From the NCBI GenBank assembly GCA_963965975.1, contig OZ014418.1:2136275-2200274 (forward strand): a stretch of DNA of 64,000 nucleotides, in the 5' to 3' direction. Source of the stretch: Xestospongia bergquistia (lineage: Eukaryota; Porifera; Demospongiae; Haplosclerida; Petrosiidae). Position numbers and translations under genes: made by a program. The notes below the pieces were generated by a model. It searched no databases. It saw nothing but the letters and a program-made list of their open reading frames with translations, and was not told the origin of the DNA. Of the stretch, positions 13,835-36,511 are shown piece by piece (positions within the stretch are counted from its first letter, which is position 1; every line of letters starts with the position of its first letter).

Positions 13835-14148
13835 TCAACACCCGTACATGAGACAGAGGAGGAGCCAAACAAAAACCCATGGCCAAAAAAGTAAAGTAAT
13901 TATAAAATGGAGGACATGGTTTGGACGGTCATCATTGACATAGACACGCTGTTGGGTTACCTAAGGTAAAATAAAAACAAAACAGAACAGTTATCATAAC
14001 AAATCAAGAGTAGCTTAATGTTTACTATTTCAATAACAAATAAAGATAAAATCACATGATCAACAATGATGAAATTGTTCACATGATCAAGTATTGCCTA
14101 AAACTAACAAATCACTCCCAAAACACAATTTTTATTAAAGACTAACAT

Positions 14149-14202
<54 letters not shown>

Positions 14203-14640
14203 CCACCACTCTTGAAGAGTACATCTACAGAAGACTACATACAGTCTAGAAGAGTACATATCTGCATTAAGTTGCTGGGGTGGATTTTTAAGTGATTAAT
14301 CATAGATAATATTGTTTTGATAGTTATAAAAATTACTCTTGTTCCATTAATTGATTATAACTAATTTTAATTGTTAAACCAATTGGGAAACCATGCATGT
14401 TAGTAGATGAAAGAGAAGTAGACAAAATGGGTCAGGGATCAGGTCGTATTAACTTACAGTTGGTTGTGAACCAACAACTACAACATTTGTAGTTGCTTGT
14501 TGAGCAGGTGCTGGTTGATAACCGGTGGCCTGGTAACCAGTATAAACTCCACCAGCAGGCTGGTATCCACCTTGATAACCAGGTGGAGGGTAGCCTTGCT
14601 GATAGCCAGGATTATATGGCGGTGGTTGTTGATATGCCAT
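13835..14640 (-). CDS. P/Q/Y-rich small membrane protein, WPW family (member 1)
   Basis: Two exons, 14458-14640 and 13835-13960, joined at a phase-0 intron. The head begins MAYQQPPPYNPGYQQGYPPP, includes a PPPY (PPxY-type, possible WW-domain ligand) and ends with TTNVVVVGSQPT. The second exon starts VTQQRVYVNDDRPNHVLH and continues FIITLLFWPWVFVWLLLC to LMYGC-stop. The hydrophobic stretch of about 20 residues probably inserts in a membrane; the end is Cys-rich. Function is unknown. The His-x3-His / WPW / VW pattern recalls short uncharacterised membrane segments following Pro-rich tails in other eukaryotes (from memory, not searched). A longer in-frame start exists at 14679, but ATG 14640 fits the family. 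Confidence 0.78.
14150..14201 (+). repeat. (CA)n microsatellite
   Basis: About 26 CA units within the intron of the small membrane protein gene. Confidence 0.95.
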
Positions 14641-15151
14641 CACTAGTAGAGAGACTAGAGAAATAGAAGTACTGAACAACTAATGGCTTTAACAATGCTT
14701 GTATTATCACTATAATGAATGTACATTACATAGTTAAAGGACTACAGTACTCCTCACAGCGTTATGATTGAAGATTTTACTACTTGATTACGGGCTCTCA
14801 CTTATGAACAGGTAACTTTCCCAGAAAACTCCACCTTTTAAGTTATAACAACCTTATTAGTTCTGGAGGGAGGGGCTGGCAGCGGTCAAGGGTCATAACT
14901 GATAAGGCGGCAATAAAATTAATGTATAGTTTGAGTTCATTTACTTAGCAGTTACTAATTTCAATATTCCCATTATAATGGCAAAGAGTAACTTAATGCA
15001 AACAGAAGTTCAGTGTTTTCAACATAGGATTTATGTTGTTATTATACACACAACTAAATTGAAAGAGTAACTGATTGTTACATAAAAAATTAATAAAATC
15101 AAAATAAATGTGGATTGATGTACTGTAATACTCTTCACACTTTGATCTCTC

Positions 15152-15660
15152 TTAACATCCGTAGATACAACAGATTAAAAGCCAGACAAAAATCCATGGC
15201 CAGCAAAAAAATGTGATGAGGCAATGAAGGACATGATTTGGACGATCTTTTGTTGTAATAACTGTAGTCTAAAATAAAAATGTATATTATAGTAATGGAA
15301 ATCTCTACAGTGATATGTCTGTGCATCTTCTTCTAATTATATGTTTGTGTGTGAGTATGTTGAGAGTATATCAAATAAAATGTACCCTATTCTATAGTTA
15401 AAACTCATTGAAAATGTCTCCATGATGTATCAATGATAGCATAATGAACTATTCACAATGCCCTATTTTTATTTGCACTGTCATTAATTAATTACCTGAG
15501 GTGTTGACTGAACTACCACTACATTGTTGCTTGTCTGTTGTTGTTGTTGTACTGGTGGAGGAGCTTGATGGTAGTATGGAGAGGGAGGTGGATGGCCGTA
15601 GCCTGCTGGAGGTGCTGGATGACCATAGCCCAGTGGCTGGGATGCAAAATTGGTGTCCAT
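15152..15660 (-). CDS. P/Q/Y-rich small membrane protein, WPW family (member 2)
   Basis: Exon 1 (15496-15660) encodes MDTNFASQPLGYGHPAPPAG, a Tyr/Pro/His-rich run and QQQQQTSNNVVVVQSTPQ. Exon 2 (15152-15268) begins after TTTTAG and encodes TTVITTKDRPNHVLHCLI, then TFFCWPWIFVWLLICC and IYGC-stop. The intron is phase 0, as in the other members. The linker between head and membrane segment is polar (KDRPNH). Function is unknown. Its start lies 300 bases from the divergent ADP-dependent glucokinase start. Confidence 0.78.
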
Positions 15661-15960
15661 TGATGCAATAGTCTCAATAAGTTCCTTTATATGACTAGCT
15701 TGTAATTTTCTACAGTTCTCTTATGACAGTTCAGTTTTATTCTTTATATAACTAGCTTGTAGTTTTCTACAGTTCTCTTATATAGACAGTTCAGTTTTGT
15801 CTCATCATGCTGTTTGTTTTGCAACAGTGTATTACATGTTAACGCACAAAAAAATACACGTGACATTTTATGTAGTAAGTGATTATAAAAATCGACACTA
15901 GGTTAATATGAATATCAATTTCCTTATTAATAATTAATTAAGGGCGTGGTCGAGTCAACA
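15661..15960. promoter_or_regulatory. bidirectional intergenic region, member 2 / ADPGK
   Basis: Separates two divergent starts. It contains an imperfect direct repeat: TATGACTAGCTTGTAATTTT at about 15690 and TATAACTAGCTTGTAGTTTT at about 15746, each followed by CTACAGTTCTCTTAT. Confidence 0.5.
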
Positions 15961-17762
15961 ATGGGTTTAGGACAAGTCTTAGCCTCATCTATTTTCATTT
16001 TCCTTGCAGTAACTCTTCCTTACGTTCAGGTATCATTTCGTGGAGACCTAAAGCGTATTCTAAATGGTCTACTATATCAAGAGAGAAGGTATCCAGTGAG
16101 ACAGGGTAACCGTGTGGCTGTAGGATTTGGTTCTTGTTGGGACTTGAATACTGATGCTATTGCAACACTTGAAAAAGCTGAAATATCACCTCCAATTTCA
16201 TCAGATCATTTTGATACAATATCTTCAGAGGAAGAACTTGCAAAAGTTTTTGCTTATTTTTTTCAAAATGGAGCAGCAGCCGAGTATGTTATTGTATTCA
16301 CGGATTTAATATAAACATTTGGCTTTCATACTAAGTCCATGAATAATTTTAGAATAACCTAATTCAACAATTGTATAGATAAATACTAGCTGATTAGCCT
16401 GCATGCTGGGGTCAAATGGTTAGGCCAACTGAGTTATACTATACAGGCTAGCACTAAAGATATTTTCTGTCTTTGATAGTCTATCCCACAGACGTGATAT
16501 ACATGTACAGTGTATAATAAATCAAATATTATATTGCTGAGTTCCTACATGTAATCATGTGACATGGGATAAATTTCCTGTTTGGGTGTTTTATTAATAT
16601 TCACATTTCCTTAACTCATTAGGCTATTTGTTATACTTTCTAACTCTGTGTTGTCTTTTTTAGACGCTTCTCTAACAACAAAGATTTTTTCAAAACTATT
16701 GTATCAATAGCAGCTGGTATCAATGGCTCTTATTGGACAATTGGTGGCAATGCTCCTGTTATGTCTCAGAGATTGGCTATAGAAGGCTGGGAGGTGTTAT
16801 TGGCTGCCCAAATAAATTCCAAAACAGCTAAAGTATTACATAATTCCATAACATTGACAGGCAATGCCTCTAAGTATGTTGAAGAGGATGTCCATTTAAT
16901 CATGGAGTATGATCTAGGAGCACACTGGGGACCATACGTTAGTCCTCGAGGTAATCGTTTTATTATACACAGTGACTATTCTAACATGTTGCTGGAGACT
17001 CTTGATGGCTTTAGTGAAGCAGTAGTTAATTTCAGTCCAAACTTGGTAGTGATTAGTGGCTTACAAATGATGGATAACTTTCCTTTTGATCTAAAATTGC
17101 GCACAGATAAATTGAAAAAACTAGAGAGCATTCTAATTGCACTCCCTTCTACTACCAAAGTACATTTTGAAATGGCTTCATTTACAGAGGAAATATTGCT
17201 CAAAGAATTATTGGAGTATGTAATACCATATGCTGATTCAATGGGAATGAATGAACAAGAATTGGCCAATTTACATAGCCTTCTTACGTATGGGAGCATT
17301 AATTTGGTTTCAGACTATAGTCCACGTGTTGCCACTGCTCTAGACCAAGGAAGAAAAGTCTTGAAAGGTTTGCAAATGAAAAGGAGATCTCCACATCACC
17401 ATTCATTAAGTCGTATACATGTTCACACACTAGCCTTCCAAGCTATCTTCACAGTTCAGGGATCTGGGTGGCACCACACACGTACAGCAGCAGCTAAGTC
17501 TTCACTGGTGGCTAATAGGCATGTTTGCTCTTCTAATTATATCAATTTAGACAACGCTAAACTTATTTTGGACGATTCGTTCTCACTGAGTGTTGAGTCA
17601 GACAGCAAACGGATGCCTTTAATGGAAGATGCCCCAGTATCATGTTGGTATGAAGGTAACACAAAGATTTGTGTTGCTCCCAATCTCGTATGCACTGCCA
17701 TCCGAAAAACTGCTGGAGGCGGTGATAATATATCAGCTGCTGGTCTCTCTGTTCAGTTGTAA
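15961..17762 (+). CDS. ADPGK: ADP-dependent glucokinase, membrane-anchored
   Basis: Two exons, 15961-16283 and 16664-17762, joined through a split Glu codon. It phosphorylates glucose with ADP as donor (ADP-GK family, ribokinase-like fold). The start MGLGQVLASSIFIFLAVTLP is a hydrophobic signal/anchor, as expected for the ER-associated animal enzyme. The C-terminal half carries RIHVHTLAFQAIFTV, an Ala-rich HHTRTAAAKSSLVANRHVC segment, and IRKTAGGGDNISAAGL near the end. The GGGD there sits where the conserved catalytic GxGD of the family lies; Asp is kept, and the residue after the first Gly is Gly. An upstream GTG at 15946 is in frame, but the ATG at 15961 is the better start. A decayed copy of exon 1 lies downstream. 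Confidence 0.88.
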
Positions 17763-18074
17763 CAGGTTATAGTTGTATTTGATCAAAACTTTTATTTCTG
17801 TGCTTAATTATATCATGCTGCATTATTTAGGTTACCTCTGGATTATTTACTTTTATTTATTGTGAATTGTATACACATAGTGACAACATTTTTTGTCAGT
17901 GTAGAGTAGAGGGAGGGGTCTCTAATCAGCAGGTCTGTACATATATAGCAATATAATAGTGGTTATAGTGTCATTATATTAGAGTATAATACTCTACTAT
18001 AATGGTATTGTAATGCCAATCCTCCTACCTGCTGGAGGGAGGGACTGGCTACATAAGACTAATAAACAGTGGTA

Positions 18075-18330
18075 TATGAAGCAGAGCTCAAGTTGTCTAT
18101 TACATCAAAAACAAAGGGAGCTAGTGAGACAGAGTACTATAGTATTTGGTTCTGAAATTGACTTAAACACTGATGTCATTGTAACACTTGAATAGCAAAA
18201 ATATCAGCTCATGTTGATACAATATCTTCAGAGAAAGCTATAATTTAGACAATATTTCCTTATTTCTTTCAAATAAAGAAGCAGTTGAGTGTATTAATTC
18301 TTTTTATATTTGAATTCACCTAATCTCACA
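18075..18330 (+). pseudogene. decayed ADPGK exon 1 copy
   Basis: The region matches exon 1 of the upstream gene in order: TACATCAA then a Gln/Arg-coding part, CTAGTGAGACAG, ATTTGGTTCT..GACTT.AA.ACTGATG, GTAACACTTGAA, TTGATACAATATCTTCAGAG and TTTCCTTATTTCTTTCAAA. An in-frame TAG follows the ACACTTGAA block, and later indels break the frame. No copy of exon 2 is seen. The call as a partial tandem duplicate is well supported by the ordered matches. Confidence 0.75.
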
Positions 18331-20030
18331 ATTAATTCTAATATTTTTGGTCAACTTAGGCTACAAATGATCAGTTTACTAGCATATACCATCAATTAGA
18401 TCATGACATGCAAGGGCACCATACAGTACATAATAGATAAAATGCTCTATAACATGTGTGCATGCATCAGACAGGCAGTAAGTACTCCATCGTATGCATT
18501 ATAGTACTGCCTATGTAGTGATGACTCAGATTATCTAATGAAATATATAAGTAGAAGCATGAAATATATCAAAGAACCTCTTAATTCTAAATAGTGTTAC
18601 TTAATTTCTACATACATACTAACTATGTCACAATCTTAATTAATATTATTGTATTATTTCAATCTGTTCATCTTTGATTTTTTTCTCAACTATTTTATCT
18701 TGCATATGACATAAGTATACAGTTTACATAACATATGTCAACTATATGTGATTCTGTGTTAAGAGCATGACTACTGGTTAGTTGAATGAATTGGTTACCA
18801 ATTTAGGGTCAACATTTTTTCACATATAATAAATATATTGAGAAATAGTAGGCATCATAATATTTGTATTGCTAATGTAATAGCAACTGACAGTTATTCA
18901 TGGCTGTTCCTTTTAACATCTCATTAGTTAGACAAAATAATGCTATAGGCCTGAGTGTAATGGCTATCACTATGGATTTATACCACCCACACAGCCTTTT
19001 TGAGGAGTCATTTGTTGAAATACATGAACTGTGCATTTCCATAGCAATTACTATAATGACTATACTATTTAATCTATATATAGTATCTGTTGCTATTGTT
19101 GAGGTGTGTATATAACCCAAGTGATAATGAATGAGTTGTAATGAACCATTCCATCTTGACAGTGATAATGCCAACTATGGAATACTACAAATCATGAATA
19201 CTATTACTATATATTACAGCTGTTTGGTTATAATAGTATCTATAAGATAAGATCTGTTCATGGCTTCAATTATCAAGCAATAAACTATGAGGATTACTTT
19301 TTTGGCTTATACTTGGCTTTACACATATTGTGTTAGATTAGTTTTGCATTGTGGTAACTCAACATTGGGTTTACATTACAATTGTATTGATAAAACTATG
19401 GTAACCAGGGCCTCAGTTAAAATGACACTATCCTTTTCTCATCATGTTTTATATGCAATGAAAATGATTGTGGATTGCTTGAATCAACCAATCTACTTTT
19501 ACAGTAATAAGTTAGAGTTATATAGGCAATGTCTGTATGTATCATTTGTTAAGCATTGAACTTACTCAACAACCAAAACATGTTGACAATCATTTCTAAT
19601 TATTTTTAGGTAACAACATAATTTAAAACTGAGTAACCATGAGCATCATGAAATTGTTGAGTTTTAGAATCAATAATAGCCATTTTGACAGCACAAGTTT
19701 GTCTCCTTTCACACATTACTTGTTAACCTTATGTAATAAGACTTTGGTAAAAGTTTCACTTGGAACATAAAATATAGTTTTTCACTAATTAATTGCTTAC
19801 TCTGATAGTTGTCTAAACAAATCATTTAGAAAAAAAAACTAACAAAATACATTTCTTGTACCAAAAATCAAGTAAATGTATGAATAGGTAGTGTCAGTTT
19901 AATACAAACAATGTTAACTAAATAATAGGGCATTATCCTTGCACAAAGCATGTACATAATCAAGGTGTAAACATTTTCTTTGCCATAGATATATAACAAT
20001 GTTAGATATAATGATTGTCATTGTTATTCG
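18331..20030. other. intergenic with repeat fragments
   Basis: No gene recognised. Around 19478-19510 is GATTGCTTGAATCAACCAAT followed by a TTTTACAGT, a terminus of the CACTGTAAAAA-type foldback family. Short reading frames at 18900 and 19287 overlap each other on both strands and show no family features. Confidence 0.45.
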
Positions 20031-21860
20031 ATTGGAAATTGTTGAATTTTTTAAAATTTCAAATTCTGAATACTGACAAAATAAGCCTACTACTAATAAA
20101 TGTGGGATCACTCATAATAAGTTTATCATAACAGATTAAGTCAGATGTAAAGTTGATGTAATATTATAGTTTAATTACATGGCCTACACATATTTGCACG
20201 CATGACACAGGAATATTTCCTACTCAATATATATTACAATGTTAAAATTAGATTACTGATTTTATTTTATTTCTCAGGTGACAACAATCTGTATGATAGT
20301 CTGTTTCCTTTAGCACCCATAGATACAGCAGAGGCAACACCAAACAAGTATCCAAGGAAAGAAGAAAAAGGTTATGATGCAGTGAAGACAATGGTTTGGA
20401 GTGTCATCTCTCTCCACATAGGTGACAACTGTCTAGAAAATATATTGAATATACTAATTACTGTACGTATGTAGTAAAAATGCATAGCCATACTAATGCT
20501 GTTTATTTACTCAAATGAGCATTCTCACAGTGTATAGATTAAAATTTATATATATGTATATACAACTATCACAACTGAGAACATAGCCTTAAAAGGGTGC
20601 ATAAAAGGAATCCTTCTTTGGGTCTGGGGAATGGGAACAAATGCATTAGGACTCATACAACAGGAATATATATGTGGATAGAACATTCTTAGACCTGATC
20701 ATGTGTCAAGAGAGTGAAAAACGCAAAATAACTGTTGTGATATACACTGGTTGTGGTGATAATCTTTCAAATAGAAGCACAGACCATCTTTTATTAAATA
20801 ACATTGTCTCATGTCATGTATTACTTTAAGAGGAGAGTCTCAAGGACTTTATTATCTATCATCAAGTCACGTGAAATAGGTGTTAAGTGAAAAGGAGAAG
20901 CTTGTAAGTGGTGTTTCTGTGGCCTGTAAGAATTTTGCAGGCTATATGAGTTCCATATGCCCTTGTCCCCAGGACCCTTACTCTCTCAGTGAACAGTTGG
21001 CAACACTAGACTAGGTAATAGTATTGATTTACTGTTAAAGGTCATGTGGCATCTCTTATACTAGCTTTTTCTGTTCACTGCCTATAATTTTCTGCTGATA
21101 TAAAAACAATAGCTAAGTAAAGACAGACCTAGTTAAATTCTAAGTTTGTATCTCAGTTACCTGTGGCTGTTGCTGGACAAGTATTACATTGCTTTGTTGC
21201 TGGTATTGAGGACCAGGCTGAACGTACTGCTGAGGTTGATAAGACATTTTTCTTTCTCTTGTTGGTACCTATATCTAACTGTCTTGATAAGGGTGTGGCC
21301 AGTTATATCTTTGCAGTTACCGGTATTGTGTTACGTACTGTTAATAAAATTAGGATACGCAAATAGCAGCTACAGATAGTTTTTTGCACTTGTGCATTAG
21401 GATGGACTATAGATATTCGTTACTACTTTGGAGGATATCATTTTATTTCTGGTATTGTGTATTCCTATCAGATTACTCACAATAGAGAGCCACGAGTAAA
21501 GAAAAGTTAATAAATAATTAAGCTACGCGTAAATGATCACGCCCTTATTGATAACTAATATTTGGCGTGCCAAATATATCTTGGCACACCTTGACTGAGT
21601 GCCTCCCTGTAATTATATGCGAAAACACCAAAATATCTGTATAAGATCTTGCAATAATTGGTTATACAATCCTTTGTACTTTTATATTTGTGTTACTTTC
21701 ACTTTGATTCATCGTGGAGATTGTTGAGTTCAGGTTTAAAACTGAGTTTACATGCATGTCTGGCACCTAGAGAAGTTTTGAGTTTGTACAACTAGCTAAG
21801 TTATGTGTAGATATACTGTCAGTTTGATTAGAGCTCATTGGTTTGTTAAGGTTTATAGAC
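20030..21860. repeat. segmental duplication, copy 1 (with gene member 3)
   Basis: Similar in order and orientation to 22030-23740. Shared blocks include GCCTACTACTAATAAATG against GTCTACTACTAATAAATA at the left. At the right they share CCAAATATA..TTGGC and TATATGCGAAAAC, and further on GAGTTTACAT..TGTCTGGCA. It carries a complete two-exon gene. Borders are approximate. Confidence 0.7.
20310..21247 (-). CDS. P/Q/Y-rich small membrane protein, WPW family (member 3)
   Basis: Exon 1 (21161-21247) encodes a short head, MSYQPQQYVQPGPQYQQQSN, then VILVQQQPQ. Exon 2 (20310-20432) encodes TVVTYVERDDTPNHCLHCII, then TFFFFPWILVWCCLCC and IYGC-stop. In this member and member 4 the WPW Trp-Pro-Trp becomes Phe-Pro-Trp. 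The intron of about 730 bases is long for the cluster. Function is unknown. Paired with member 4 by a segmental duplication. Confidence 0.75.
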
Positions 21861-22029
21861 TTACCATACCACACTGTATATAATTGCTATATATAGGCTT
21901 GTGAATCAGATAATTGAAACATATAACAAAACAGGCCTGACTCTGATTTGGGCACTGATTCAAAGTGTTCTAGACAGTGACAAATGTTGCATTGTTTGAC
22001 ATAATAATTGCAGTATCATGAGTTTTATT
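21861..22029. other. short spacer between duplicated segments
   Basis: Nothing recognised. Confidence 0.4.
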
Positions 22030-23740
22030 TCAAATTCTGAATATTACAACTCAAATAAGTCTACTACTAATAAATATGGGATTACTCATAATGAGTTTAT
22101 CATAATAGCTAAAGTCAGATGATAGTTCAATTGCATGACTTACACAAATTAGCTAACATGTATGATACAGGAACACTAATAATAGTTGTTACTTAGTATA
22201 CGTTACAATGAGAAAGTTTGATCACTAATTTTAGTTTATTTCTCAGGAGACAATCCATATATGATAGTATGTTTTCTTTAGCAGCCATAGATACAGCAGA
22301 GGCAACACCAAACAAATATCCAAGGAAAGAAGAAAAAGGTTATGATGCAGTGAAGGCAATGGTTTGGACTGTCATCTCTCACTGTATATCTGACAATTCT
22401 CTGAGAAAATAGGATATGTTCATTATATACTAATTACTACAGACAATTTTAAAAATGTGTGGGCATGCATGCATACATATATAGTGTTTATTTACTCATC
22501 ATCACTAGCTACAGCTATATATAATATCACAAATAAGAGCATATTGCCTTAAAAGGGTGTGTATAGTAATCCTTCACTGGCATCATTATCTTTATGTCAT
22601 CACAAATCTGTGACTAAAAATTTAAGCGTCTAGGAATAATTCATTGTATTTCAAGATTTAGGTTTGGGCTTTAAATATTAATTTAAATGTCACATTAAAG
22701 TAGTTTAACGTACTGCCTTTTCAGCAGCTACCTTGATACAGTGTTTAATGATTTGGTGCAATATGCAGCTTTAAGACAGCTGTACAATAACCATCCAATG
22801 ATTCACCTACTCTTTGTTTGTACTTTGATATCACATTGCATGTGCACTTGATCACAGTACACTCAATATACACAGATAGTTGATATTATGGTAAAATTAC
22901 TTTTACATAACATGGTTATAAGGTTTAGGGTAATAATATTAATTTCCTGCTAAAGGACATGTGGTATCAAACTATCAATTATACTGGCTCTCTCTCTATC
23001 CACTGCCTGCTTATAATTTTCCACTTTGGCTACAGCTAAAACAGAGTTGTTTAAATTACTTAGTTTTATCTTACCTGTGGCTGTTGTTGGACAACTATTA
23101 TATTGCTTTGCTGCTGGCACTGAGGACCAGACTGAACGTATGGCAGAGGTTGATATCCTGAAGCCATTTTTCCTTCGTCGATGCCCAAATAACTGAGGAA
23201 GGGTGTGGCGAGTAAACGTAAACTTCTTAGGGCATGCAAACAACGACAGGTTAGTTTGCACTTGTATGGTCTAGTAGATATTTGTTATTACTTTGGAATA
23301 CATCACTTTATTTTTCTGTTTGTGTATTCTTATCTGATTATTCACAATTGAGTACCACGCATAAAAGATATTGTAATTATAAAGTTAATAAATAATTGCT
23401 ACGTGCAAAACAACCACGCCCTGAGTCGCCCTCATCAATAACTGAACTTATATTCGACGCGCCAAATATAGTTGGCTCACTTTAACTGAGTAATTCCCTA
23501 TAATTATATGCGAAAACGCCCAAATGTCTGAACGAGACCTTGCAATAATTGGTTATACAACACTTTGTTTTGTTAAGTTTGTGTGAGACAATCATAACAC
23601 TTTCACTTTGGAGATAGATTCGTTTTAAAAGTCAATTTGGTGAGTTTACATATGTCTGGCAACTGCTGAAGTTTTGAGTTTGTATCTAGCTAAAGTTCTG
23701 TTTGGATATATTGTCAGATTAAATAAAGTTAATTGTTTGA
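22030..23740. repeat. segmental duplication, copy 2 (with gene member 4)
   Basis: Partner of 20030-21860. Exon 2 is the best-conserved stretch; the intron has diverged strongly and differs in length, so the duplication is not recent. Confidence 0.7.
22278..23167 (-). CDS. P/Q/Y-rich small membrane protein, WPW family (member 4)
   Basis: Exon 1 (23075-23167) encodes MASGYQPLPYVQSGPQCQQQ then SNIIVVQQQPQ. Exon 2 (22278-22400) encodes RIVRYTVRDDSPNHCLHCII, then TFFFFPWIFVWCCLCC and IYGC-stop. Both splice sites are standard (CAG|GTAAGA; CTCAG|AGA). It is the closest relative of member 3. Function is unknown. Confidence 0.75.
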
Positions 23741-25224: not shown

Positions 25225-25226
25225 GC

Positions 25227-25951: not shown

Positions 25952-26226
25952 TGTAACAATTTAGTTTGTTAAAGTAATATACTAATTTAAGAATTTTAAA
26001 AAATCATATTTTGTTGATAACGATTCTGTGTGTCTGTTGGTATCAGTTAAAATACAATCATAAAAGTTCAGGAAAACAGTGCACAAATAAAAAGTCTATG
26101 CAAGTGACAAGTTAAAGATAGGAATATATTGACTCACTATAAATGTTTGTAACAATAATTGAACTTAATTGAACTATCAAACTTGAATTAACAATAAAAG
26201 CATAACATACACCTTTCACTATTCAT

Positions 26227-26477
26227 CTAACATCCATATATGCAGCACATAAGGAGCCAAACAAAGATCCAAGGCCAGCAGAATAAGGTAATGATGCAGT
26301 GAAGAAAATGAGAGGGTTTATCTTTCTGTACTTGCACAACTGTCTATGGATGGAAGAAAACATTTACAAGATACAGGATATATATATATATTAGTTTACC
26401 GGTCCTGCCTGCTGTGTGACAACAACAATGTTGTTGTTAGTCTGTTGTTGCATTTGTGGTTGACCATAATATGCCAT
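26227..26477 (-). CDS. P/Q/Y-rich small membrane protein, WPW family (member 5)
   Basis: Compact gene: exon 1 (26400-26477) and exon 2 (26227-26343) with a 56-base intron. The head is the shortest of the family, MAYYGQPQMQQQTNNNIVVV followed by TQQAGP. Exon 2 encodes TVVQVQKDKPSHFLHCIITL, then FCWPWIFVWLLMCC and IYGC-stop. The start lies in CAAAATGGC, as in several paralogs. Function is unknown. Confidence 0.8.
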
Positions 26478-27100
26478 TTTGAATCCAGAGCAACGAAGTG
26501 AGTATAGAAACTATCTCTTCCGATGTGGCACGATGTGCAACTATACACATTATTATATATATATAATTTGATTGGTATAGTTTTGGGTGTGGTTTAGGAA
26601 ATGATGAAGGGTGTTTCCTTAGTCAAGCGTCGCCCCTCACGGCCATTATTTTAAGAGGCGCGTTTCTACGTTTAGAGTCATGGTGGGCACAAGAACTCCA
26701 ATGTAACCCCTTTATTTTAATTGTTGCATATAGAATAGCATATGACGATGCAACCACACTGGTATACTGGGTATGAATCAGTTTGGAAGAGTTATTTTTG
26801 GTTTACTTCAAGCTCAAGAAAAATACTAGTTCTGACGTCGCATATTATATGCAATTTCAATACTAATAAATGTAATTAATACACTGTAGCAATATTGTAT
26901 ATAACAATAATCATAAAAGGTTTAGGGAAAACAATTCACAAATAAAAATGACTATAGAGTACATATTAATTAAATAGGCATAATTATACTCACTCACTAA
27001 TTATAAAATGTTTGTAGCAATAACTATAATACTTATAAATTATTATACGTTATCAAAGTATAAATAAAAAGTGTAATATAAATCTTTCACTACTTTTCAT
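26478..27100. other. intergenic between members 5 and 6
   Basis: About 620 bases with an AT-rich patch near 26550. No gene seen. It must contain the member 5 promoter and the member 6 3' end. Confidence 0.4.
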
Positions 27101-27433
27101 CTAACAGCCATATATGCAGCACATAATGATCCAGACAAAGATCCAAGGCCAGCAGAGTAAGGTAATGATGCAGTGAAGAAGATGAGTCGGCTTCTCTTTC
27201 TTCTGTACTTGCACTACTGCCTATATAGATGAGAAAAAGGATATTTACAAGATAGAATATTGTAGATATAAATATAATAGCTTTACTGGTGCAGCCTGTT
27301 GAATAACAACAATGTTGTTATTAGAAGTCTGCTGTTGAAGTTGTGGTTGCTGCGCGTATTGAGGTTGTGGTGGAGGTTGATCATATGGCTGAGGAGGCGG
27401 CTGCATCGATGGATCGTATTGTGGAGCTGCCAT
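27101..27433 (-). CDS. P/Q/Y-rich small membrane protein, WPW family (member 6)
   Basis: Exon 1 (27287-27433) encodes MAAPQYDPSMQPPPQPYDQP, further Pro/Gln/Tyr residues and TSNNNIVVIQQAAP. Exon 2 (27101-27220) encodes AVVQVQKKEKPTHLLHCIIT, then LLCWPWIFVWIIMCC and IYGC-stop. The 66-base intron has standard ends. The membrane-segment linker has one extra Lys relative to members 5, 7 and 8. Function is unknown. Confidence 0.8.
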
Positions 27434-28197
27434 TTTGAAGAAGAGCGACGAAGTGAGCTCGGGAACCACCCCTCCTCCTAATAAGGGCGTGTTACTATGG
27501 TGAGACAACTATCGTTTTTTGATTGGCCAGTTATACAGTTTTGGGTGTGGTGTATGAAGGACCGCTAGAAGGCGTGTAATATCCCTATAATCATGCACAT
27601 TATGTGAGTATATACTGTTCTTCCTCTTTGCGAGATAGGACAATCGAAACTTCTCCTATGGCAGTCTAGTGCTGTACCACAATAACATTGTTAGTAATAA
27701 TTGCTGTGTAGTTAGTTAGCTGAGGATGTCGTTAATGTTTATTGAAGTTATCGAGCTATAGTTGACCCTGCAGAAGCTCGTTACTTTATGCTTTTATAAA
27801 TTAGGTATGGCTAGGAAAATCACTAATCCATTTAAGACTTAAGTTATGTAAGAATATTTAGAATGTGTAATACGTTAATTTCTTGCTATAATTCACTATT
27901 ATGATAGCAATCGCAATGCTGCATTGTGTGGATATAGATAGTCCTAATGTCCTAACTCACATAATGGTTTCCAGCATAGCACATATACTACTGAGTTTAT
28001 ATAATTAAGATAAACAATTTAGAATTCATATTTAGTACAGATTATATAACGCAATCAGCAATATCTGCAATAAGCTATTATGATAGCATATTAAAAAACT
28101 ATAAGCACAGATTATGATGGCATATTTAATATAAATATATGCATAGCTATATATATATATATATATATTATGTTATCATGAGGTCTATAATTTTCAT
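27434..28197. other. intergenic between members 6 and 7
   Basis: AT-rich, with a (TA)n run near 28147-28169. No gene recognised. Confidence 0.4.
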
Positions 28198-28502
28198 CTA
28201 ACATCCATATATGCAGCACATAATGAGCCAGACAAAGATCCAAGGCCAGCAGAGTAAGGTAATGATGCAGTGAAGAAGATGAGAGGGCTTCTCTTTCTGT
28301 ACTTGCACTACTGCCTATATATAGATGAAAGAAGATATTTACAAGATAGGATATAGATAATAGTGTTCAGTACCGGTGAAGCCTGTTGCTGAACAACAAC
28401 AACGTTGTTATTAGAAGTCTGCTGTTGAAGTTGTGGTTGTGGCGGAGGTTGACCATAATACGGATTTTGAGGTGGCGGCTGGTAATACTGTGGAGCTGCC
28501 AT
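28198..28502 (-). CDS. P/Q/Y-rich small membrane protein, WPW family (member 7)
   Basis: Exon 1 (28374-28502) encodes MAAPQYYQPPPQNPYYGQPP, then QLQQQTSNNNVVVVQQQASP. Exon 2 (28198-28314) encodes AVVQVQKEKPSHLLHCIITL, then LCWPWIFVWLIMCC and IYGC-stop. The intron is 59 bases. Exon 2 is nearly identical to that of member 8, while the heads differ in repeat number, so the tail is the conserved part of the family. Function is unknown. Confidence 0.8.
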
Positions 28503-29329
28503 CTTGAACAACAACAATGAAAAACGCTAGACCGAATTTAACTTGACCCTTTTCAATCGATTTTCACTCTTTTTATAGGATCTTCTACTTTTAGCGCCCC
28601 TCTTATGGTAGTTGGGCGTATACAGCCTATAGTATTGGTAGTTGGGCGTATATAGCCTATAGTATACGATGAATATTTTCGAACGATTATAGCTGTGAAT
28701 ATGTTTAACTATACACATAAAATAGGTGAACAAAACTTGCAATTGAGAGTACGAAGGCTAATTTTATCACAACCCATAGGCTTGGACGGATCCAAGTTGG
28801 AGAGAGCTGAGTATATATGCATCGGAAGGATTGATTGAAATTGAAGTTAATAAGGTGTACTGTTTGGGAACAGAAATAGATTTGAGAGATGGTAAGGAGA
28901 AGTCAATATAATAGCGATTATAATTTAATAATTCGAAATACTGAATTGAAGTAATCATTAAAGTGATTTACCATTTCTGTAGGGTCACTTCTAATTTTGA
29001 CTCATAATCACATTTAGCTAGTAAAGCAACACAATAAATTTTATCCTAGCTTGCGAGGGATTTCAATTTATGGAGGCAGTATGGTGTGGGACTTGGTTGA
29101 ATCAGACATCTCAAAGAGCTGTGCTGATGCAATAGAGGTTTGATCCCTGGATTAAACCATTTAAAAAGTGGGTAACTATATAGACCTTGACTTTTGGAAT
29201 GTTTATTTGAATTATTTGTTACAGACATAACCCACAAACAGTTATATCATCAGAAGTAAAACAGATACTAATATTATGTCAGTATCATGCAAGTATCCAT
29301 GAGATACTATTAAAGTCTGCCTTGATATG
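28503..29329. other. intergenic; possible tRNA-derived SINE remnant
   Basis: A short tandem repeat of about 29-32 bases near 28605-28665 (GGTAGTTGGGCGTATA.AGCC) lies upstream of member 7. At 29070-29160, GGAGGCAGTATGGTGTGGG and GAGGTTTGATCCCTGG stand about 60 bases apart, resembling degraded A and B boxes of a tRNA-type promoter. No gene recognised. Confidence 0.35.
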
Positions 29330-29582
29330 TATCAAGATTGATGTTTGGAGATTAAGATATTAAAAGTAATTAGATAATGATCAGAATTTAGAGTAAAATT
29401 AGATGAAAAGATAAATTGTTCACATAGTCAGAGAGATTACTGATGACCAGATCAAGAATATTACCTTTCACATGGGTAGATATGCCAACTAACTGTTCTA
29501 GGTCACAAATGATATCACAGAGAGAGGAAGAGAATTGAGTATGAACAATAAGTGCAGAACAATTCACATTAGGAACATTCAT
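29330..29582 (-). mobile_element. LINE (non-LTR retrotransposon) ORF2 remnant
   Basis: The minus-strand frame encodes LEQLVGISTHVKGNILDLVI followed by SNLSDYVNNLSFH. After a frame break it reads SDHYLITFNIL. This is the usual end of the endonuclease domain in animal LINE ORF2 proteins (Thr-His-x-x-Gly-Asn-x-Leu-Asp-Leu and Ser-Asp-His). The element is truncated at both ends and frameshifted, hence inactive. Confidence 0.7.
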
Positions 29583-30640
29583 GAAGTCAACTAAAACTGA
29601 CTAGAGACAATGCTAACATGGTGGTTAATTTATCCACTCTATGTTAAATATGTTGTTTGATGTGGTGACCTGCATGGCCATGGGCTTATATTGAGATTGT
29701 CCTAAACTGATGTTGTCTATTGTACAATTTTTCTGTAGTGATTTGAGCATAATTGTCTTGCACTCTAGTAGCTGTGGAGTCTATTGGAACACAGTCCTTA
29801 TACAGATTCAGATAAAGACATGTATAATACAGTTGTCCTCTTCTTTGTTTGTATATCTGAACTATTGATCTGATTTCCATGATTAAATAGCTAAACTGAT
29901 TATAAATTAATCAATCATCAAATAATGTATGAAGACAGACTGGACCATTGTCATTTTTAGCATAATTAATAGGTGATTAGATATTGAGTAACAAATACCA
30001 TATTGCTCTTATATTACTAGTATACTACTGTTGTCTATTGATTCCATTGATATAACAAAGTGCAAACAGTAGACAACAATATAGACTGCACTATCAAGAG
30101 GAAGCAACAGATGCTCTACCTTTGTTTATTGCTATTGGTGAAGTGCAAACAGATTAGAATAAGAGAATAGAATACATTGTACATATGGAAGGTAGTGACT
30201 ATTGATTGCTAACTAACATAACTCTTAACAATTAGTCAATTACAACTATACAAGAAACTATTTGTCTATAGTTTATTATTAATAACAACAATCTGGTGTT
30301 TACTATTTTCTCAATATTTCATCAATCGTGTATTATATGCAATAAAAATAACCTTGGATTGGTTAAATCAACCAATCAATTTACAGTGCATGATTGACAT
30401 ATTGATATCAAGTCAAAGAAAGCCTATAGCAAAGCTCATATATGATCCTCCTTCTTGTCAAAACATTTTAAAGTATACTTTAGAATGCTACAATGTTATA
30501 ATTAAATGATCTATATTTGAAACAATGTATTTCTTCTGCTGCATGACTAGCCACTACTTATTTTGATCATGACCTGGAAATTATTCACTGTGTGTCACTC
30601 TGTTTGTTCTTATTGGTGATTTTGTAGTATATGTCCTAAA
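29583..30640. other. intergenic, repeat fragments
   Basis: GGATTGGTTAAATCAACCAAT followed by CAATTTACAGTGC (30355-30390) is a right terminus of the CACTGTAAAAA foldback family. No coding sequence seen. Confidence 0.4.
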
Positions 30641-30681
30641 TATGCATATATATATATATATATGTATATACATTATATAAG

Positions 30682-30715
<34 letters not shown>

Positions 30716-30726
30716 CATTATATAAG

Positions 30727-30762
<36 letters not shown>

Positions 30763-30772
30763 CATTATATAA

Positions 30773-30809
<37 letters not shown>
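30641..30809 (+). repeat. AT-rich minisatellite
   Basis: GTATATACATTATATAAG recurs three times (about 30664, 30709, 30756) with a period of 45-47 bases, separated by (TA)n runs of increasing length. Confidence 0.9.
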
Positions 30810-30813
<4 letters not shown>

Positions 30814-31107
30814 CATAGGAAATGATTAGTATGTTTACTTTCAGTTAGCATCAAATAATTTTCTACATACAGCCTGTATAACTATAGATTGTTTAAATCA
30901 ACAAATCAGTTTTTACAGTGAATTGGTTACCTATTATTTGTCTTTGTAATAATAAACATTATTAATCTTCCTAGGATAAATAATATCTACAAGACAATGT
31001 CAATAGAGGCACAAAACATGACCAATCTATTGAATTTCCTCTAATATATCTAACAGTGTAGCTATATATAATATATAGGATATCTCTTCTACACTTAGGA
31101 TAGCACC

Positions 31108-31743
31108 TTGTTCTTCAGTTTATTATATTTAACATCTTGTGCGCACTTCTGTAAACATGCCACGTATGCAATCTCTTTCCATATTTCAGGCCCATTCTAT
31201 TTTAGTGGTACAGCCATACTATTTAATTTGGTTAATAGTATGACTCTGAAGTCCTCAATTTCTCTCATTTCTCTAAAAATATACAAATATCAGTCTCTTC
31301 TGCCTCTCATATTCCTACTCTTTATTAACAAAGTTTGCACCACCCTCCACTCAATCTTAATTAAACTTGATAATCAAGTTATCTATGTGCAGGATGTGTA
31401 TTCTACAAGTACTAATATTAGTAAATACATTTTGATCTTAATTAGTGATCCTTACCTTCTAAGACAGACAGCAAATTATCTATGTCAACATTTTCAATAT
31501 GTTGGAATTAATGGAAATTAAGCACAATGTTAAGTTATGTACGAAATATCTCAGGAATCTGTTCTTGGTGTGCTGTTGTACACGTTTCATGTGTATATTT
31601 TGAATGACACCGAATTGAGCATTGAGCATTGTCCTAAATGTCTGGGATTACTGTTGTCCCAATGTATATATAGTTTGGGAGTAAGTAGGTCTATATTTAA
31701 AAGTTTTCTACATATTTCTACCACATTATTAAATTTAGTATAA
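31108..31743 (+). mobile_element. possible LINE reverse-transcriptase remnant
   Basis: Two successive plus-strand frames. Across their junction the translation contains VGINGN, then after stops SVLGVLLYTFHVYILND. This resembles the reverse-transcriptase block where V-x-V-N-G is followed by Gly-Ser-Val-Leu-Gly-Pro-Leu-Leu-Phe and an Asn-Asp pair. Upstream TTLHSILIKLDN could match the pre-palm segment. The similarity is weak and several stops interrupt it; chance is possible. Confidence 0.4.
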
Positions 31744-31798
31744 AAACTGTCTTGCATACGTGATCAATAAAGACAATTGTAATTAATTCTCCGGATCC

Positions 31799-31915
31799 TT
31801 AACATCCATAGAGACAACAGGCAACAATCCAAACAATTATCCATGGCCAGAAGAAGATGCTGATGATACAGTGAAGAATATGACTTGGTTTATCTCCCAT
31901 TATACTATAGATATT
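31799..31915 (-). pseudogene. orphan second exon of the WPW family
   Basis: After CTCAG the frame reads NIYSIMGDKPSHILHCIISI, then FFWPWIIVWIVACC and LYGC-stop, with all conserved family positions kept. No matching P/Q/Y head exon was found upstream to 33950. A donor-like GGTAAGTA at about 31945 belongs to no head-like exon. It may be a remnant, or may splice to an unrecognised first exon. The frame is undamaged. Confidence 0.65.
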
Positions 31916-33950
31916 CTGAGAATATTTATTTAGAGCTATACATACTTACCTTTATCTCTTATATATATGTTAGCTGTCTTTAGACAATGATGACTGCTTC
32001 CTGTCAGCAATCAGCCCTTACAGGAACTACAATCGTAATAGACGAGTTTATCATCTTGTGATCATGTGACTCTACTACGTCACATATAGTTTGTAGTATG
32101 ATCTATTATTAGCATCTATTGTTAGTATTTCTATTATTAGACGTACACATGTGCTATTATTAGTAACTACTATATATAGATGCTGTTGAGAGCATGTTAT
32201 CATATATTTGTTGGTAAGTATCTTTGATAATGGTCTGGTCTGCCTATCTACTCCAGTTTTGCCTACTGAAAGTCTAATTTGGGCTCATGCTGAAAGAACA
32301 GTGCCTTGTTTATTTAAGGTTTAGGTTTTAGTATCTGATGTTTGGTGACCACACCTACTTACACAGTGCCATTCTTTTCAGCACGATCCCTAAATCAAGA
32401 ATGATTTTTATATGATTCCACTTTTATTTGCCATGTAACAATAAAATATTTATTAATATTGGGCCATATAGTAAATAGATATGATGACATCACTACCTGT
32501 CATTTAATGATGATGTCATCAGAGTGAAGTTACACCCAGAACCACCCGATACTATAATATTTGGGTGTAAGCCAAGTGTACACATATAGATAAACAACCA
32601 CAACAATTACAATAGTCTAGTTACATACAATTATATAACAAATTCCTGAATAGGTAATACAGCACATACGAGTGTGAGTATGTTCATATTAATTTTGAGC
32701 ACTGTTCCTGTTGTTTACATTGAATTTTTCTCACTTTATTAACCTCTTCTAATGCATCTGATATTATCATAACAGTATGATGATTCTGATAATATATACT
32801 ATGCGTAGTGTGTTTAGATATTCCCTCACAAAATGCTTGTGACACAATACAAATGAAGGTCAAAATAACATTTCTCTGAGCATACCAAGCAACAACATGC
32901 TAAACTCCAACAATAAAAATAGTACTCTATTGTACATACCCCCGTACCACAGGAAAAATGTAGTATAACTATTATATATTCTGTTGTAAAGGGATATTTT
33001 TAAAAGTATAACAGTTATAGCTGCTAAATTTAAATATATGTATTTGTTTAACAGCTTCTCTTTGAGCTCTATATAAAAATGCACTGCTTGGTTTTAAAAA
33101 TATCTGCTGAGTATGCCTATTGATACACTGTGGTTAATAGCCACAGCTGCTAGGAGTTAGTTATAATAACAAAAAACCAACACAATGAACATGTATGGTT
33201 GGTATCCACTCCTTCATAGATTAAAATATATGATAATAAAGTTTATGGTACACACTTTTAATACACAATTTAATACAGCAATCTATTGTACTTTATGTAA
33301 GGATAATATCTCATATTACATTATACAAACTGTTATGCATACAAGTATATACATACATATGTATATATATATATATGAGGGAGAGCACACAATTATTATA
33401 GTTTTGTTCTCCTAAGCTTGTGTTACACATGCCAGCTATGACAGGAATTCTGTCTGGACTGTAGCAAATAGTCACATTGTTTGTTAAAACAACCAATCAG
33501 TGATACATACAACATGATAGAGGTACATTGATTCGCCAATGGTTTTCTACCATGGATGTAAATTTGAAAAAGAACCTTCAGACTTTATATATCTTATATA
33601 TATATTTTAGACTTGGATATCACAGTATACTATATGTACAATATATCCCTCAATTTTGTTTGTGCATACCCTATAGTGATCTTCAATACATTTAAGATAT
33701 AATGCTTTAGGGACAAAACAAGTTATTAAACTATTTAATTTACACAATGCAAGTTATGACTAAATTTGTTATCAATATAACAATTAAAGTATTCAAATTA
33801 TTGTTTTATAAATCTATAATATACCTTAATTATAAAAAAGGTACTAAAGGATCAACAATATAGCTTTACATGTACTTAGTACTGTACATGTACACTCAAT
33901 ACTAGCTATGAATTAAATATACAGTTGTTATGAGTTTTTAAGTTTCTCAT
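31916..33950. other. intergenic, no gene recognised
   Basis: Two kb without family features. Reading frames near 32860 and 33185 are AT-driven. A (TA)n/(GTATA)n patch lies near 33345-33375. Confidence 0.4.
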
Positions 33951-34314
33951 CTAACATCCATATATGCAACACATGAGGAGCCAAACAAAGATCCAAGGCC
34001 AGCAGAAAAAGGTAATGATGCAGTGAAGAAGATGAGAGGGCTTCTCTTTCTGTACTTGCACTACTGTCTACAGATAAAAAGGCATTTACAAAGACTAAAT
34101 ATATATAATTGTTATTTACCTGTCCAGCCTGCTGCTGCTGAACAACAACAACGTTATTAGTTGTCTGCTGCTGTGCAAATTGAGGCTGTTGTGGAGGAGG
34201 TTGATAATATGGCTGAGCTGGAGGTTGACCATAGTATTGTTGAGGTGGAGGCTCACCATAACCGTATTGTTGAGGTGGTGGCTGCATACCTGGATCATAC
34301 TGTGGAGCCGCCAT
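33951..34314 (-). CDS. P/Q/Y-rich small membrane protein, WPW family (member 8)
   Basis: Exon 1 (34120-34314) has a long head: MAAPQYDPGMQPPPQQYGYG, then repeated PPPQQYYGQPP-like units, and TTNNVVVVQQQQAGQ. Exon 2 (33951-34067) encodes TVVQVQKEKPSHLLHCIITF, then FCWPWIFVWLLMCC and IYGC-stop. The 52-base intron is the shortest in the family. Function is unknown. Repeat-driven length variation of the head is evident against members 6 and 7. Confidence 0.82.
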
Positions 34315-36132
34315 TTTAACACTTGACTTAATTTAGCTCGATTCGCTGCTAATGCTTGCTATATACTGAAGTATGTTACAAGAACGTTCGCTATTATATA
34401 TAAGCGTGTAAGCTCCGACTTATATTATAGGTTATTTGGCATATAAAGTGGTCTCGTCCTCAGACTGCCAGCTCCCGAACGAAAAGTCACTTCTCCAAGC
34501 CCCCGAGAGCGAAAAGGCAGTTTTGCTTTGGTTATCAGCGTGACGTCATTGATCATAATTATGACCTTGTGGAAAAAATCAATACTATGAACCGTGAAGA
34601 CAAGGAAGCAATGAAAGAAGAGACAGATCCAAATCCAATAACACTTATCATCAAACTACAACCTTCAGTTGTTACAGAGACTAAACCAATGCAGTTGTGT
34701 GCACAGACTGTACTTGTTTAGTTGCTTACTTTGTAATTACACCCATTGCTTTAAATAATTTCATCAAGAGAATCAGATTTTGATTATTAGCATATAGTAC
34801 TGCGTGTTGATTGGTAATAGTAATAGATAGTTATAATTTTGTAATACTCCATAGTTGATTGTCGCTTGGGTTTAGTCTTCTCATTTTAAAGACATACTTT
34901 ATAATTGTAACAATTGTATCATTAGGAACAATACAGTTTTTAGTCATGACAGTCTGGGAATATGGCATGCCATTTGTAACAAAAGTAATATCATGTAATG
35001 TATACATTATAGCACTATAGTGCATGCAATTCATGTTATAGTGTATCACTCATGCACTATATATAACATGAAATGTATTTTTATGCTATAATGTACATTA
35101 AACAATATTGCTTTTGTTGCAAACACCATCCCATAGTGGCAAGAGTATATGTTGAGAATGTTTTTATGAATGTTGGATTTTGTCTGACAACTAGAATTCC
35201 AGAACTCCAAGTAGTAAAAATAGCAGCTTTATTGTAACTATTGAAGAGCAATCCTTATTACAGGAATTATAATTATAGTACTGTGAAATTATTGTTTGAC
35301 CATGCAAAGCTTGAGATATATACTGAGAATATCTTTATACTTATGATGTACATCATACATCAATAACTTATAAGGATTTACAGTTATTAGTTAACAATTT
35401 ATAGAATCTCAAGGCTGTTAGTTGTTTTTTCATGTACATACAATTACACTGCTTCTTGACATGAAAATGTTCTCATGCAGTGAAAAATAGTGTTGTAATA
35501 GTGTTTTATTCCAGTATTGATTCTCCGAGTTTGTGCCAAGTTAAAGTTAACATATATAGTAAGATGTAAAGGTATATATAATTATCTTAAGAAAGGACAT
35601 CCTGTGGTTATATACAAAAAGAAGGTGTTTATATAATAAATAATATAATTATATGTAAATAGGATGATAAAGTTGCATTAGAAAAAGTGAGGCAGGTGTA
35701 TGTGTTAGGTGCAGAAACTCAGAGATACAAGAAATGATAACGAGAACTGAAAGATGATGTAGTAGATATGTAATGATCACATGTTGTAAAACCTAAAAGC
35801 ATGAATACAGGTATAAAACTGAGATAATATTGAAATAATGAACATAACATCATACTTGATTACTCAAACACATTATTAGAATATTAGGCAGTTTTCATTC
35901 ATATTTTATTAGTACTTACCAGTGTAAATATGCAAGTGTGACATTATTGTATAGTGTTGTGTGTTCAAGTTATAATTTTTAAAACTAATTACTCAATACT
36001 TTGATATACAGGACAAAAAAGTTGTTAGAATTATTATCTTTAAATTAAAAGGCAGTTAATTAGGGAGTTGAATTGACTGTATATATTATAATCATAGCAA
36101 CTTAATGTAATTTTGAGAAGTTTCTCAGTCAT
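34315..36132. other. intergenic between members 8 and 9
   Basis: Contains a 44-codon plus-strand frame at 34587-34721 (MNRED... to a TAG) in a GC-richer patch, unrecognised and possibly chance. It also contains the hairpin at 34996-35100. Nothing else recognised. Confidence 0.4.
34996..35100. repeat. imperfect 105-base hairpin
   Basis: Left arm TAATGTATACATTATAGCA... and right arm ...TGCTATAATGTACATTA are inverted repeats of about 45 bases each. The TTCATGTTATA blocks near the loop are also paired. Likely a small foldback MITE; an RNA hairpin is possible but unsupported. Confidence 0.75.
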
Positions 36133-36511
36133 TTAACATCCATATATGTAACACAGAATAAGCCACACAAAGACCCAGGGCCAGCAGAAAAAGGTAATGA
36201 TGCAGTGAAGAAAATGAGAGGGTTTATCTCTCTTTACTTAACCATTGTCTATAGAGAAGAATATAATCATTCCGAATTATAGTGCAAATATTTACTGTGC
36301 CTGTTTGTTGTACAATTACGTTAACAGGTGTTGCTTGTTGAGGAACTCGAGGTGGCGGTTGGCCATATTGATTATATTGTTGAGGCGGTGGTTGGCCATA
36401 TTCATTATATTGTTGAGGTGGTGGTTGGCCATGATGATTATATTGAGGTGGTGGCGGTTGACCATATTGAACATATTGAGGTGGCGGCAGTTGATCATGA
36501 CCATATTCCAT
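36133..36511 (-). CDS. WPW-family small membrane protein (member 9), possibly frameshifted
   Basis: Exon 1 (36296-36511) encodes MEYGHDQLPPPQYVQYGQPP, repeated QYGQPPPQQYN units and VNVIVQQTGT. Exon 2 encodes DKPSHFLHCIITFFCWPW, then VFVWLILCYIYGC-stop (stop at 36133-36135). At the expected acceptor (CTATAG|ACAATGG, about 36248) the exon is one base shorter than its paralogs, and the phase-0 join meets a stop at once. An AG at 36233-36232 would restore phase 0, removing about six residues of the linker, but its context is poor. So either the acceptor has moved or the gene is broken. Function is unknown. Confidence 0.6.

Follow-up and report, generated by a model that had tools for sequence, protein, structure and literature searches.

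A clustered family of small sponge genes with variable P/Q/Y heads and a hydrophobic tail resembling a phage and bacterial module

Introduction

In the sponge Xestospongia bergquistia, a 64,000-nucleotide stretch of DNA (the window) contains, at positions 13835-36511, a series of short minus-strand reading frames that combine a variable head rich in proline, glutamine and tyrosine (P/Q/Y) with a nearly fixed hydrophobic C-terminal tail. Are these frames a genuine gene family, what might such small proteins do, and does the tail have relatives elsewhere? A first-pass annotation, made from the letters alone, had proposed at least nine two-exon genes plus an orphan exon, and had singled them out as the best candidate in the window for an undescribed family. 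Our analysis supports a local family of small proteins in which the low-complexity head varies and the hydrophobic C-terminal tail hardly changes. This tail resembles a module of phages and scattered bacteria that follows unrelated heads.

Results and discussion

A local family of two-exon genes

We scanned all six frames of the window with BLOSUM62 and recovered ten tail copies (g1 to g10), all on the minus strand between 13835 and 36222, with scores of 130-172. The next-best place in the window scored 35, and the best scores in five shuffled windows were 18-27. The span 13835-36511 runs from the stop codon of g1 to the ATG of g10. A P/Q/Y head and a GT-AG intron were found upstream of nine of the ten tails (g1-g7, g9 and g10), and the spliced models are open in all nine, with lengths of 64-104 amino acids. 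The predicted set of nine minus-strand genes and one orphan exon (g8) is thus borne out, as is the predicted phase of the intron between head and tail, which is 0 in all nine models. The intron position is common to the copies despite a length range of 52 to 728 bp, donor and acceptor lying at the homologous place in eight of the nine models. The splice model of g10 is doubtful: the homologous acceptor leads into a stop, and an AG further downstream was used instead. For g8, no P/Q/Y head was found in the 1.8 kb upstream or among the open reading frames between g8 and g9.

The family occupies a single locus. A g9-like query gave 16 tblastn matches across the genome (146.46 Mb on 21 contigs), of which 15 fall in the cluster and include all ten tails; the sixteenth, elsewhere in the genome, has an E of 7.7. 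The proposed local expansion agrees with this result. No further P/Q/Y heads were found in four flanking stretches of ~10 kb, with a threshold too strict to pick up the short head of g5 as well.

Next, we asked whether the tails are maintained by selection. Pooled over 45 pairs, the proportion of synonymous differences (pS) is 0.643 and that of non-synonymous differences (pN) is 0.147, giving a pN/pS of 0.23, with synonymous sites near saturation when g1 or g2 is compared with most other tails. The closest pairs do not all show a low ratio: that of g5/g7 is 0.69, from four changes. Overall, purifying selection acts on the tails, and the earlier statement that heads vary and tails are nearly fixed holds. 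Synonymous change (dS) also exceeded amino-acid change (dN) in all four head pairs compared: g3/g4 (dS 0.28, dN 0.11), g6/g7 (0.30, 0.11), g6/g9 (1.60, 0.24) and g7/g9 (0.63, 0.24). A chance or low-complexity artefact is ruled out by the window shuffles together with the selection on the tails.

Thirteen positions are invariant in the ten tails: P10, H12, L14, H15, I18, P24, W25, V28, W29, C33, Y36, G37 and C38. The WPW motif, previously described as invariant, is present in eight of ten and replaced by FPW in g3 and g4; its PW part is common to all ten. Each tail has two to seven cysteines (only two in g1), with CC as the longest run, and no tail has a charged residue from its first histidine on. 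In the nine models the maximum Kyte-Doolittle value over 19 residues is 2.16-2.47, and the most hydrophobic 19 residues are C-terminal. AlphaFold, given a tail exon and 19 aligned rows, predicted one unbroken helix over residues 11-37 of 38 (mean predicted local distance difference test score, pLDDT, 76; predicted template modelling score, pTM, 0.34). A membrane module, as first suggested, is the best reading of such a tail, judged from hydropathy and the predicted helix. The heads are 42-66% P+Q+Y and contain no hydrophobic stretch; eight of the nine lack Lys and Arg, and four have 1-3 Asp or Glu.

Probable relatives of the tail in phages and bacteria

Against Pfam, the ten tails gave a chance-level result (three families with one member each, best E 0.053), and neither NCBIfam nor PDB returned a tail match. 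No significant match to a well-characterized family was therefore found in these three libraries. Among the literature listings searched, we also found no title or abstract start that describes the family or its tail, or that links such phage proteins with a eukaryotic cluster. The family is undescribed in Pfam, NCBIfam and PDB. The tail itself is not alone, however, and this part of the claim to novelty needs amending. In PHROGs, which gives no curated cut-off and was searched at a limit of E 10, phrog_36892 (best E 3.4e-6), phrog_34413 (8.3e-5) and phrog_2697 (4.9e-4) each match all ten tails, phrog_23532 matches seven and phrog_17545 six. The matched families are given no function, except for one weak match named 'membrane protein'.

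The converse search was made with phage profiles against the whole genome. With phrog_36892, the cluster took the top six of 11 matches (E 0.001 to 0.32), followed by five unrelated places from E 0.9; with phrog_34413, g1 was the first of two matches (E 0.04); and with phrog_17545, g2 was the sole match (E 0.037). Three phage profiles each placed the cluster first across 146 Mb, of which the cluster spans ~1.6 in 10,000, these profiles being mutually related and not independent draws.

Tails of the window, phages and scattered bacteria have in common the signature H..H...[T/S]....W...W. A tblastn search with the g9 tail, limited to E 10, listed 33 records from phages, the best at 0.03. Pseudomonas phage Kremar carries the tail NHLGHFILTLFIWPWLFAW (also read as NHLGHFILTLFIWPWLFAWIM), and the reading in phage PN09 is SHFGHAILSILFFPWIIVW. 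In Mycobacterium phage MalagasyRose a DUF2510 head (Pfam E 4.3e-13) is followed by VVVTGPNHVLHLLLTVFT, and in mycobacteriophage BabyRay gp32 a P/Q/Y head is followed by VAVMPVKTNHALHLLLSILTFWMFGGWIWVWIIV. The two histidines and two tryptophans are invariant in 12 aligned phage tails, and the corresponding H12, H15, W25 and W29 are present in all ten window tails. The phage families phrog_36892, phrog_34413, phrog_2697 and phrog_17545 thus resemble the window tails in signature and hydrophobic filling; they differ in that they have no introns, many of those read have charged residues after the helix, and their heads are other or absent.

In six mycobacteriophage maps (L021, L024, L027, L028, L166 and L167) the tail gene lies at most four genes from the integrase, with heads of DUF2510 type (L021, L027), P/Q/Y type (L028) or short length (L024). 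This position near the integrase suggests that the gene may be used in lysogeny.

In genome_contigs, 34 loci were found with an alignment of six phage tails, two of which (at E 4 and 8) had first come up in the search with the window tail. Twenty-one are from Mycobacterium-type organisms and Dietzia; the others are single loci from other actinobacteria, Chloroflexi, Pseudomonas, Rhizobium, Desulfobacteraceae, Spartobacteria, Brocadiia and an unnamed bacterium. Of the bacterial sequences, the Dietzia copies come nearest to the window plan, with QQTVYV or QQTVFV, a basic link and then NHALHLVLT...GLWLP[VI]WIILAIA[NH]S. Together with BabyRay gp32 and similar integrase-side proteins, they match the window proteins in having a P/Q/Y head, a V-rich strand, a basic link and an NHxLH tail at or near the C-terminus; unlike them, they are bacterial or phage genes and lack the Cys-rich YGC end. 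The hexapeptide PNHVLH of g1 and g2 also occurs in three of the 24 bacterial frames read and in phage proteins.

A rule-based sort of heads over 88 loci gave 21 P/Q/Y, 16 DUF2510, 11 zinc-like (C..C or C..E before the tail and C..C after it), 10 with VDEYG after the tail, one with C..C after only, two without a motif and 27 other; at least L038 is missorted, some DUF2510-like heads stand among the 'other', and several loci are copies of the same phages. The tail of MalagasyRose, like that of copies with GWYPDP-like heads, relates the window tails to DUF2510 (PF10708) proteins, from which the window proteins differ in that GWYP occurs in none of the nine heads and one hand-typed full-length window protein had no Pfam match. 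DUF4234 (PF14018) is matched below its cut-off by some of the tail's relatives in bacteria and phages, the closest being L060 (E 3.8e-5, 24.2 of 25.3 bits), and by none of the window tails within a limit of E 10.

Cysteine pairs flank the NHxLH (or SHxxH) segment in a further set of bacterial and phage proteins (L053, L060, L061, L062, L022 and L026). Three of the five zinc-flanked versions tested matched zf-LITAF-like below cut-off (E 0.0003, 0.003 and 0.0045), and these prokaryotic proteins may be relatives or look-alikes of the LITAF domain. AlphaFold modelled a zinc-flanked bacterial copy only poorly, with a mean pLDDT of 58, and this model was not used.

The module is rare. At E 1e-4, phrog_2697 matched six of 296 Actinomycetota genomes, one of them the central genome of the set; among the six, L080 matched via its head and has no tail, and L079 was not read at the match. 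A hidden Markov model (HMM) of the window tails matched 26 of 299 Pseudomonadota genomes at E up to 0.1, the best match (E 0.002) being the true relative in the central genome, which was already known to carry one, and the full tail signature was not seen in one frame each of 10 of the other 25 genomes. Among plasmids, the window tails matched five records at E 1-3, each within a CoA transferase gene, and the Dietzia tail had no match.

Kinship or convergence

To compare the two sets of tails directly, we scored each with a model of the other. An HMM built from 24 of the 34 bacterial loci (nine of the ten omitted were Dietzia) gave nine of the ten window tails 19.5-29.6 bits, with g2 at the top, and the best of 19,882 scored shuffles reached 16.5. 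Conversely, 38 prokaryote and phage tails were scored with the window-tail HMM, and 32 of them outscored every one of 19,000 shuffles; five of the 38 (those of Kremar, PN09, Proteus, Rhizobium phage and MalagasyRose) had originally been found with a window tail. In hhalign, the window tails scored 96.8% against 12 phage tails and 95.5% against seven phage tails that had been found with phage-protein queries, two steps from the window tail.

Judged from these alignments, the likeness probably reflects real sequence kinship. Such kinship gives no direction, and about 25 membrane residues are compatible with convergence. The alternative, which concerns origin and not mechanism, is that both sets are short Trp/His-rich membrane anchors that came to resemble each other and that the animal family arose locally. 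Only five positions (H, L, H, W and W) are invariant over the window and bacterial rows of this short segment, all ten aligned bacterial rows have one extra residue between the two halves, and the scarcity of relatives (six of 296 Actinomycetota genomes) fits a local origin as well. On the other side stand the three phage profiles that each rank the cluster first, the HMM tests that beat shuffles in both directions for most tails, and the recurrence of PNHVLH in bacterial frames and phage proteins. We consider convergence a serious possibility, at rather less than an even chance.

A fuller history can be put forward tentatively, and we deem it unlikely as a whole: the tail would be an ancient plug-in anchor of tailed phages, scattered bacteria and this animal, which the animal lineage acquired from a bacterium or phage, and which then gained an intron, joined a P/Q/Y head and expanded in place. 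If this were true, phage and animal proteins of like plan would both tether a disordered, sticky head to the inner face of the membrane.

Kinship of the tails would offer a first way into a membrane module that is present in many phages, nameless in the libraries searched and here linked to a eukaryotic family. An unnamed membrane-anchoring module may thus be in use across domains of life. Two questions become testable: do the 'unknown membrane proteins' beside phage integrases and the animal family rely on a single anchoring device with exchangeable heads, and did animals acquire such a device from phages or bacteria?

A possible role for the anchored head

What might such proteins do? We postulate that the locus encodes a real, selectively maintained family of tiny C-terminally anchored proteins, each with a cytosolic, sticky P/Q/Y docking head. 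If the genes are expressed, exon 2 would anchor the protein in the membrane through a strongly hydrophobic helix that opens with H..H and carries W...W in its latter half. The tail is likely to be lipidated, possibly by palmitoylation of its two to seven cysteines. Exon 1 and the linker NNVVVVQQ...VVxV would make up a flexible, almost uncharged head that includes a short beta-prone strand and is kept on the cytosolic face by an anchor at the very C-terminus. There the head could serve as a multivalent docking surface, whose length and repeats vary from copy to copy while the anchor is retained. Proteins with a C-terminal helix usually keep their N-terminal part in the cytosol; by this analogy, the C-terminal helix together with heads that have no hydrophobic stretch would favor a cytosolic over a secreted head. 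The charge before the helix (1-3 Lys/Arg plus 1-3 Asp/Glu per tail) lends weak support at best on topology. Because these charges are mixed, we regard the postulated role as only just probable.

Small proteins that combine a disordered head with a membrane anchor at the C-terminus are already known, as in CYSTM and LITAF, and each of these two suggests another mechanism. In the first, the proteins would act like LITAF as a monotopic curvature device, in which the segment enters the cytosolic leaflet and turns back, so that membranes are bent or sorted, and the head recruits partners. In LITAF (PF10601), as described in PMC5095921, two zinc-binding motifs enclose a hydrophobic stretch of 22 residues, zinc clamps the protein and both ends are cytosolic; it supports curvature, and its anchor cysteines let it partition into high-curvature tubules, according to PMC8353527. 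The window proteins likewise have a Pro-containing head and a hydrophobic segment of ~22 residues with two to seven cysteines, and, as noted above, three of the five zinc-flanked versions tested from bacteria and phages match zf-LITAF-like below cut-off. By contrast, flanking CxxC pairs are absent from all ten window copies (g3 and g4 have C..C inside the segment only), and it is these zinc knuckles that LITAF requires for stable membrane integration, according to PMC5095921. The window proteins are not LITAFs, because they lack the knuckles. PF10601 is also absent from the Pfam matches of the ten tails at E up to 10, the genome's own PF10601 matches lie outside the window, the predicted helix is single and unbroken, and the head motifs PPxY and P[ST]AP occur in two (g1 and g10) and none of the nine heads, respectively. 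We judge this mechanism unlikely, and the window tails may still insert in a shallow, LITAF-like way. The 21 PF10601 matches of the genome lie on C3, C6 and C10, where genes that match above cut-off form clusters at C6 6.83 Mb, C3 9.80 Mb and C10 2.33 Mb.

In the second, the proteins would be CYSTM-like stress proteins that use a Cys-rich tail at the membrane to bind metal or to quench oxidants. The layout of CYSTM (PF12734) is alike, a small protein with a variable N-terminal part, a beta-prone element and a C-terminal Cys-rich helix according to PMC10217909, which also reports manganese-stress phenotypes in yeast; the window proteins, at 64-104 amino acids, have a comparable variable head and linker and a hydrophobic, Cys-containing C-terminal helix. 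The same paper gives CYSTM three to four consecutive cysteines in the helix and an acidic residue after it. Window tails have no run of at least three cysteines, no charged residue after the helix start and no acidic end, and g1 has just two cysteines. CYSTM had no Pfam match among the ten tails (E up to 10) and none in the genome (E up to 1). This mechanism strikes us as improbable. Membership of the window proteins in LITAF, CYSTM or DUF2510 was rejected, as both the profile match and the defining features are missing.

Returning to the postulated family of anchored proteins with docking heads and phage-like tails, we noted several observations that weigh against it. g10 relies on an ad hoc acceptor. 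Basic and acidic residues occur together before the helix, with more acids than bases in g3. A LITAF-like fold of the zinc-flanked relatives, should they adopt it, would place the two segment ends on the same side, implying shallow insertion. On the side of kinship, g8 was weakest with the bacterial-tail HMM (14.5 bits, under two shuffles), and six of the 38 prokaryote and phage tails did not exceed the best shuffle; some 25 hydrophobic residues may come to resemble one another by convergence, and the shuffles carried no membrane-helix constraints. phrog_34413 and phrog_17545 each found a single tail of the ten, at E ~0.04, and among 14 control genomes phrog_36892 matched two, phrog_34413 none and phrog_17545 one. 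Direct scans of the window tails against genome_contigs and viral_contigs gave 59 and 25 pattern matches, none of which was confirmed.

A plus-strand gene with a possible alternative end

Outside the span of the first-pass annotation, we found a plus-strand gene, g11 (4900..5204), with a head exon at 4900-5073 (MAAPHYYPPPSHNPYFGH...GGKQ), a possible 74-bp phase-0 intron and a second exon at 5148-5204. Over 38 nucleotides, its start context agrees with those of g6, g7 and g9 at 30, 30 and 27 positions, and the next best among 2972 ATGs agrees at 22. It is this context that ties g11 to the cluster, because the whole g11 protein, used as a genome query, found only g11 itself. After the possible intron, the frame reads NINSHNKSNNRSGCCCFN and then a stop, so that a cysteine cluster, GCCCFN, would replace the WPW tail. 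The spliced model is tentative, because the unspliced frame continues to a different, hydrophobic end. Cysteine clusters of this kind are often lipidated. If spliced as predicted, g11 may have retained the head and swapped the anchor for a cysteine cluster, hinting that the tail is a replaceable anchor.

Gene models of the cluster

All ten copies lie on the minus strand and are given here broadly by ascending coordinate. g1 (13835..14640; 102 amino acids) has a P/Q/Y/G head with PPPY and PPGY in exon 1 (14640-14458), an intron of 497 bp and the tail PNHVLHFIITLLFWPWVFVWLLLCLMYGC in exon 2 (13960-13835). In g2 (15152..15660; 93 amino acids), exon 1 (15660-15496) and exon 2 (15268-15152; tail PNHVLHCLITFFCWPWIFVWLLICCIYGC) are separated by 227 bp. 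The two copies with FPW tails and seven cysteines are g3 (20310..21247; exon 1 21247-21161, intron 728 bp, exon 2 20432-20310; 69 amino acids) and g4 (22278..23167; exon 1 23167-23075, intron 674 bp, exon 2 22400-22278; 71 amino acids), g3 being the nearest copy to g4. The shortest head, of 26 amino acids, belongs to g5 (26227..26477; exon 1 26477-26400, intron 56 bp, exon 2 26343-26227; 64 amino acids). Similarly short introns are present in g6 (27101..27433; exon 1 27433-27287, intron 66 bp, exon 2 27220-27101; 88 amino acids), g7 (28198..28502; exon 1 28502-28374, intron 59 bp, exon 2 28314-28198; 81 amino acids) and g9 (33951..34314; exon 1 34314-34120, intron 52 bp, exon 2 34067-33951; 103 amino acids). 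The orphan tail exon g8 (31799..31915) reads NIYSIMGDKPSHILHCIISIFFWPWIIVWIVACCLYGC, and its own ATG is a possible start. Lastly, g10 (36133..36511; 104 amino acids) has PPQY repeats in exon 1 (36511-36296) and, with a guessed acceptor, exon 2 at 36231-36133.

Other features of the window

Inside the cluster, on the opposite strand, lies an ADP-dependent glucokinase exon (16644-17762, plus strand), and the plus-strand frames at 15934-16314 and 17983-18195 are, by eye, putative further pieces of glucokinase. A look for silicatein, a sponge marker, gave 29 cathepsin-type matches, and the four stretches read among them all carry the usual GSCWAF site. L-asparaginase exons occupy 8984-10934 on the plus strand, with a C-terminal match below cut-off. 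On the minus strand, 40417-42810 holds repeated Cys-rich exons, in which a thyroglobulin type-1 repeat was matched at 42370-42810 and other parts are presumably WAP-like. Finally, 54258-60182 on the plus strand contains three similar GH18 chitinase-like frames in tandem, the first of which has a Pfam match.

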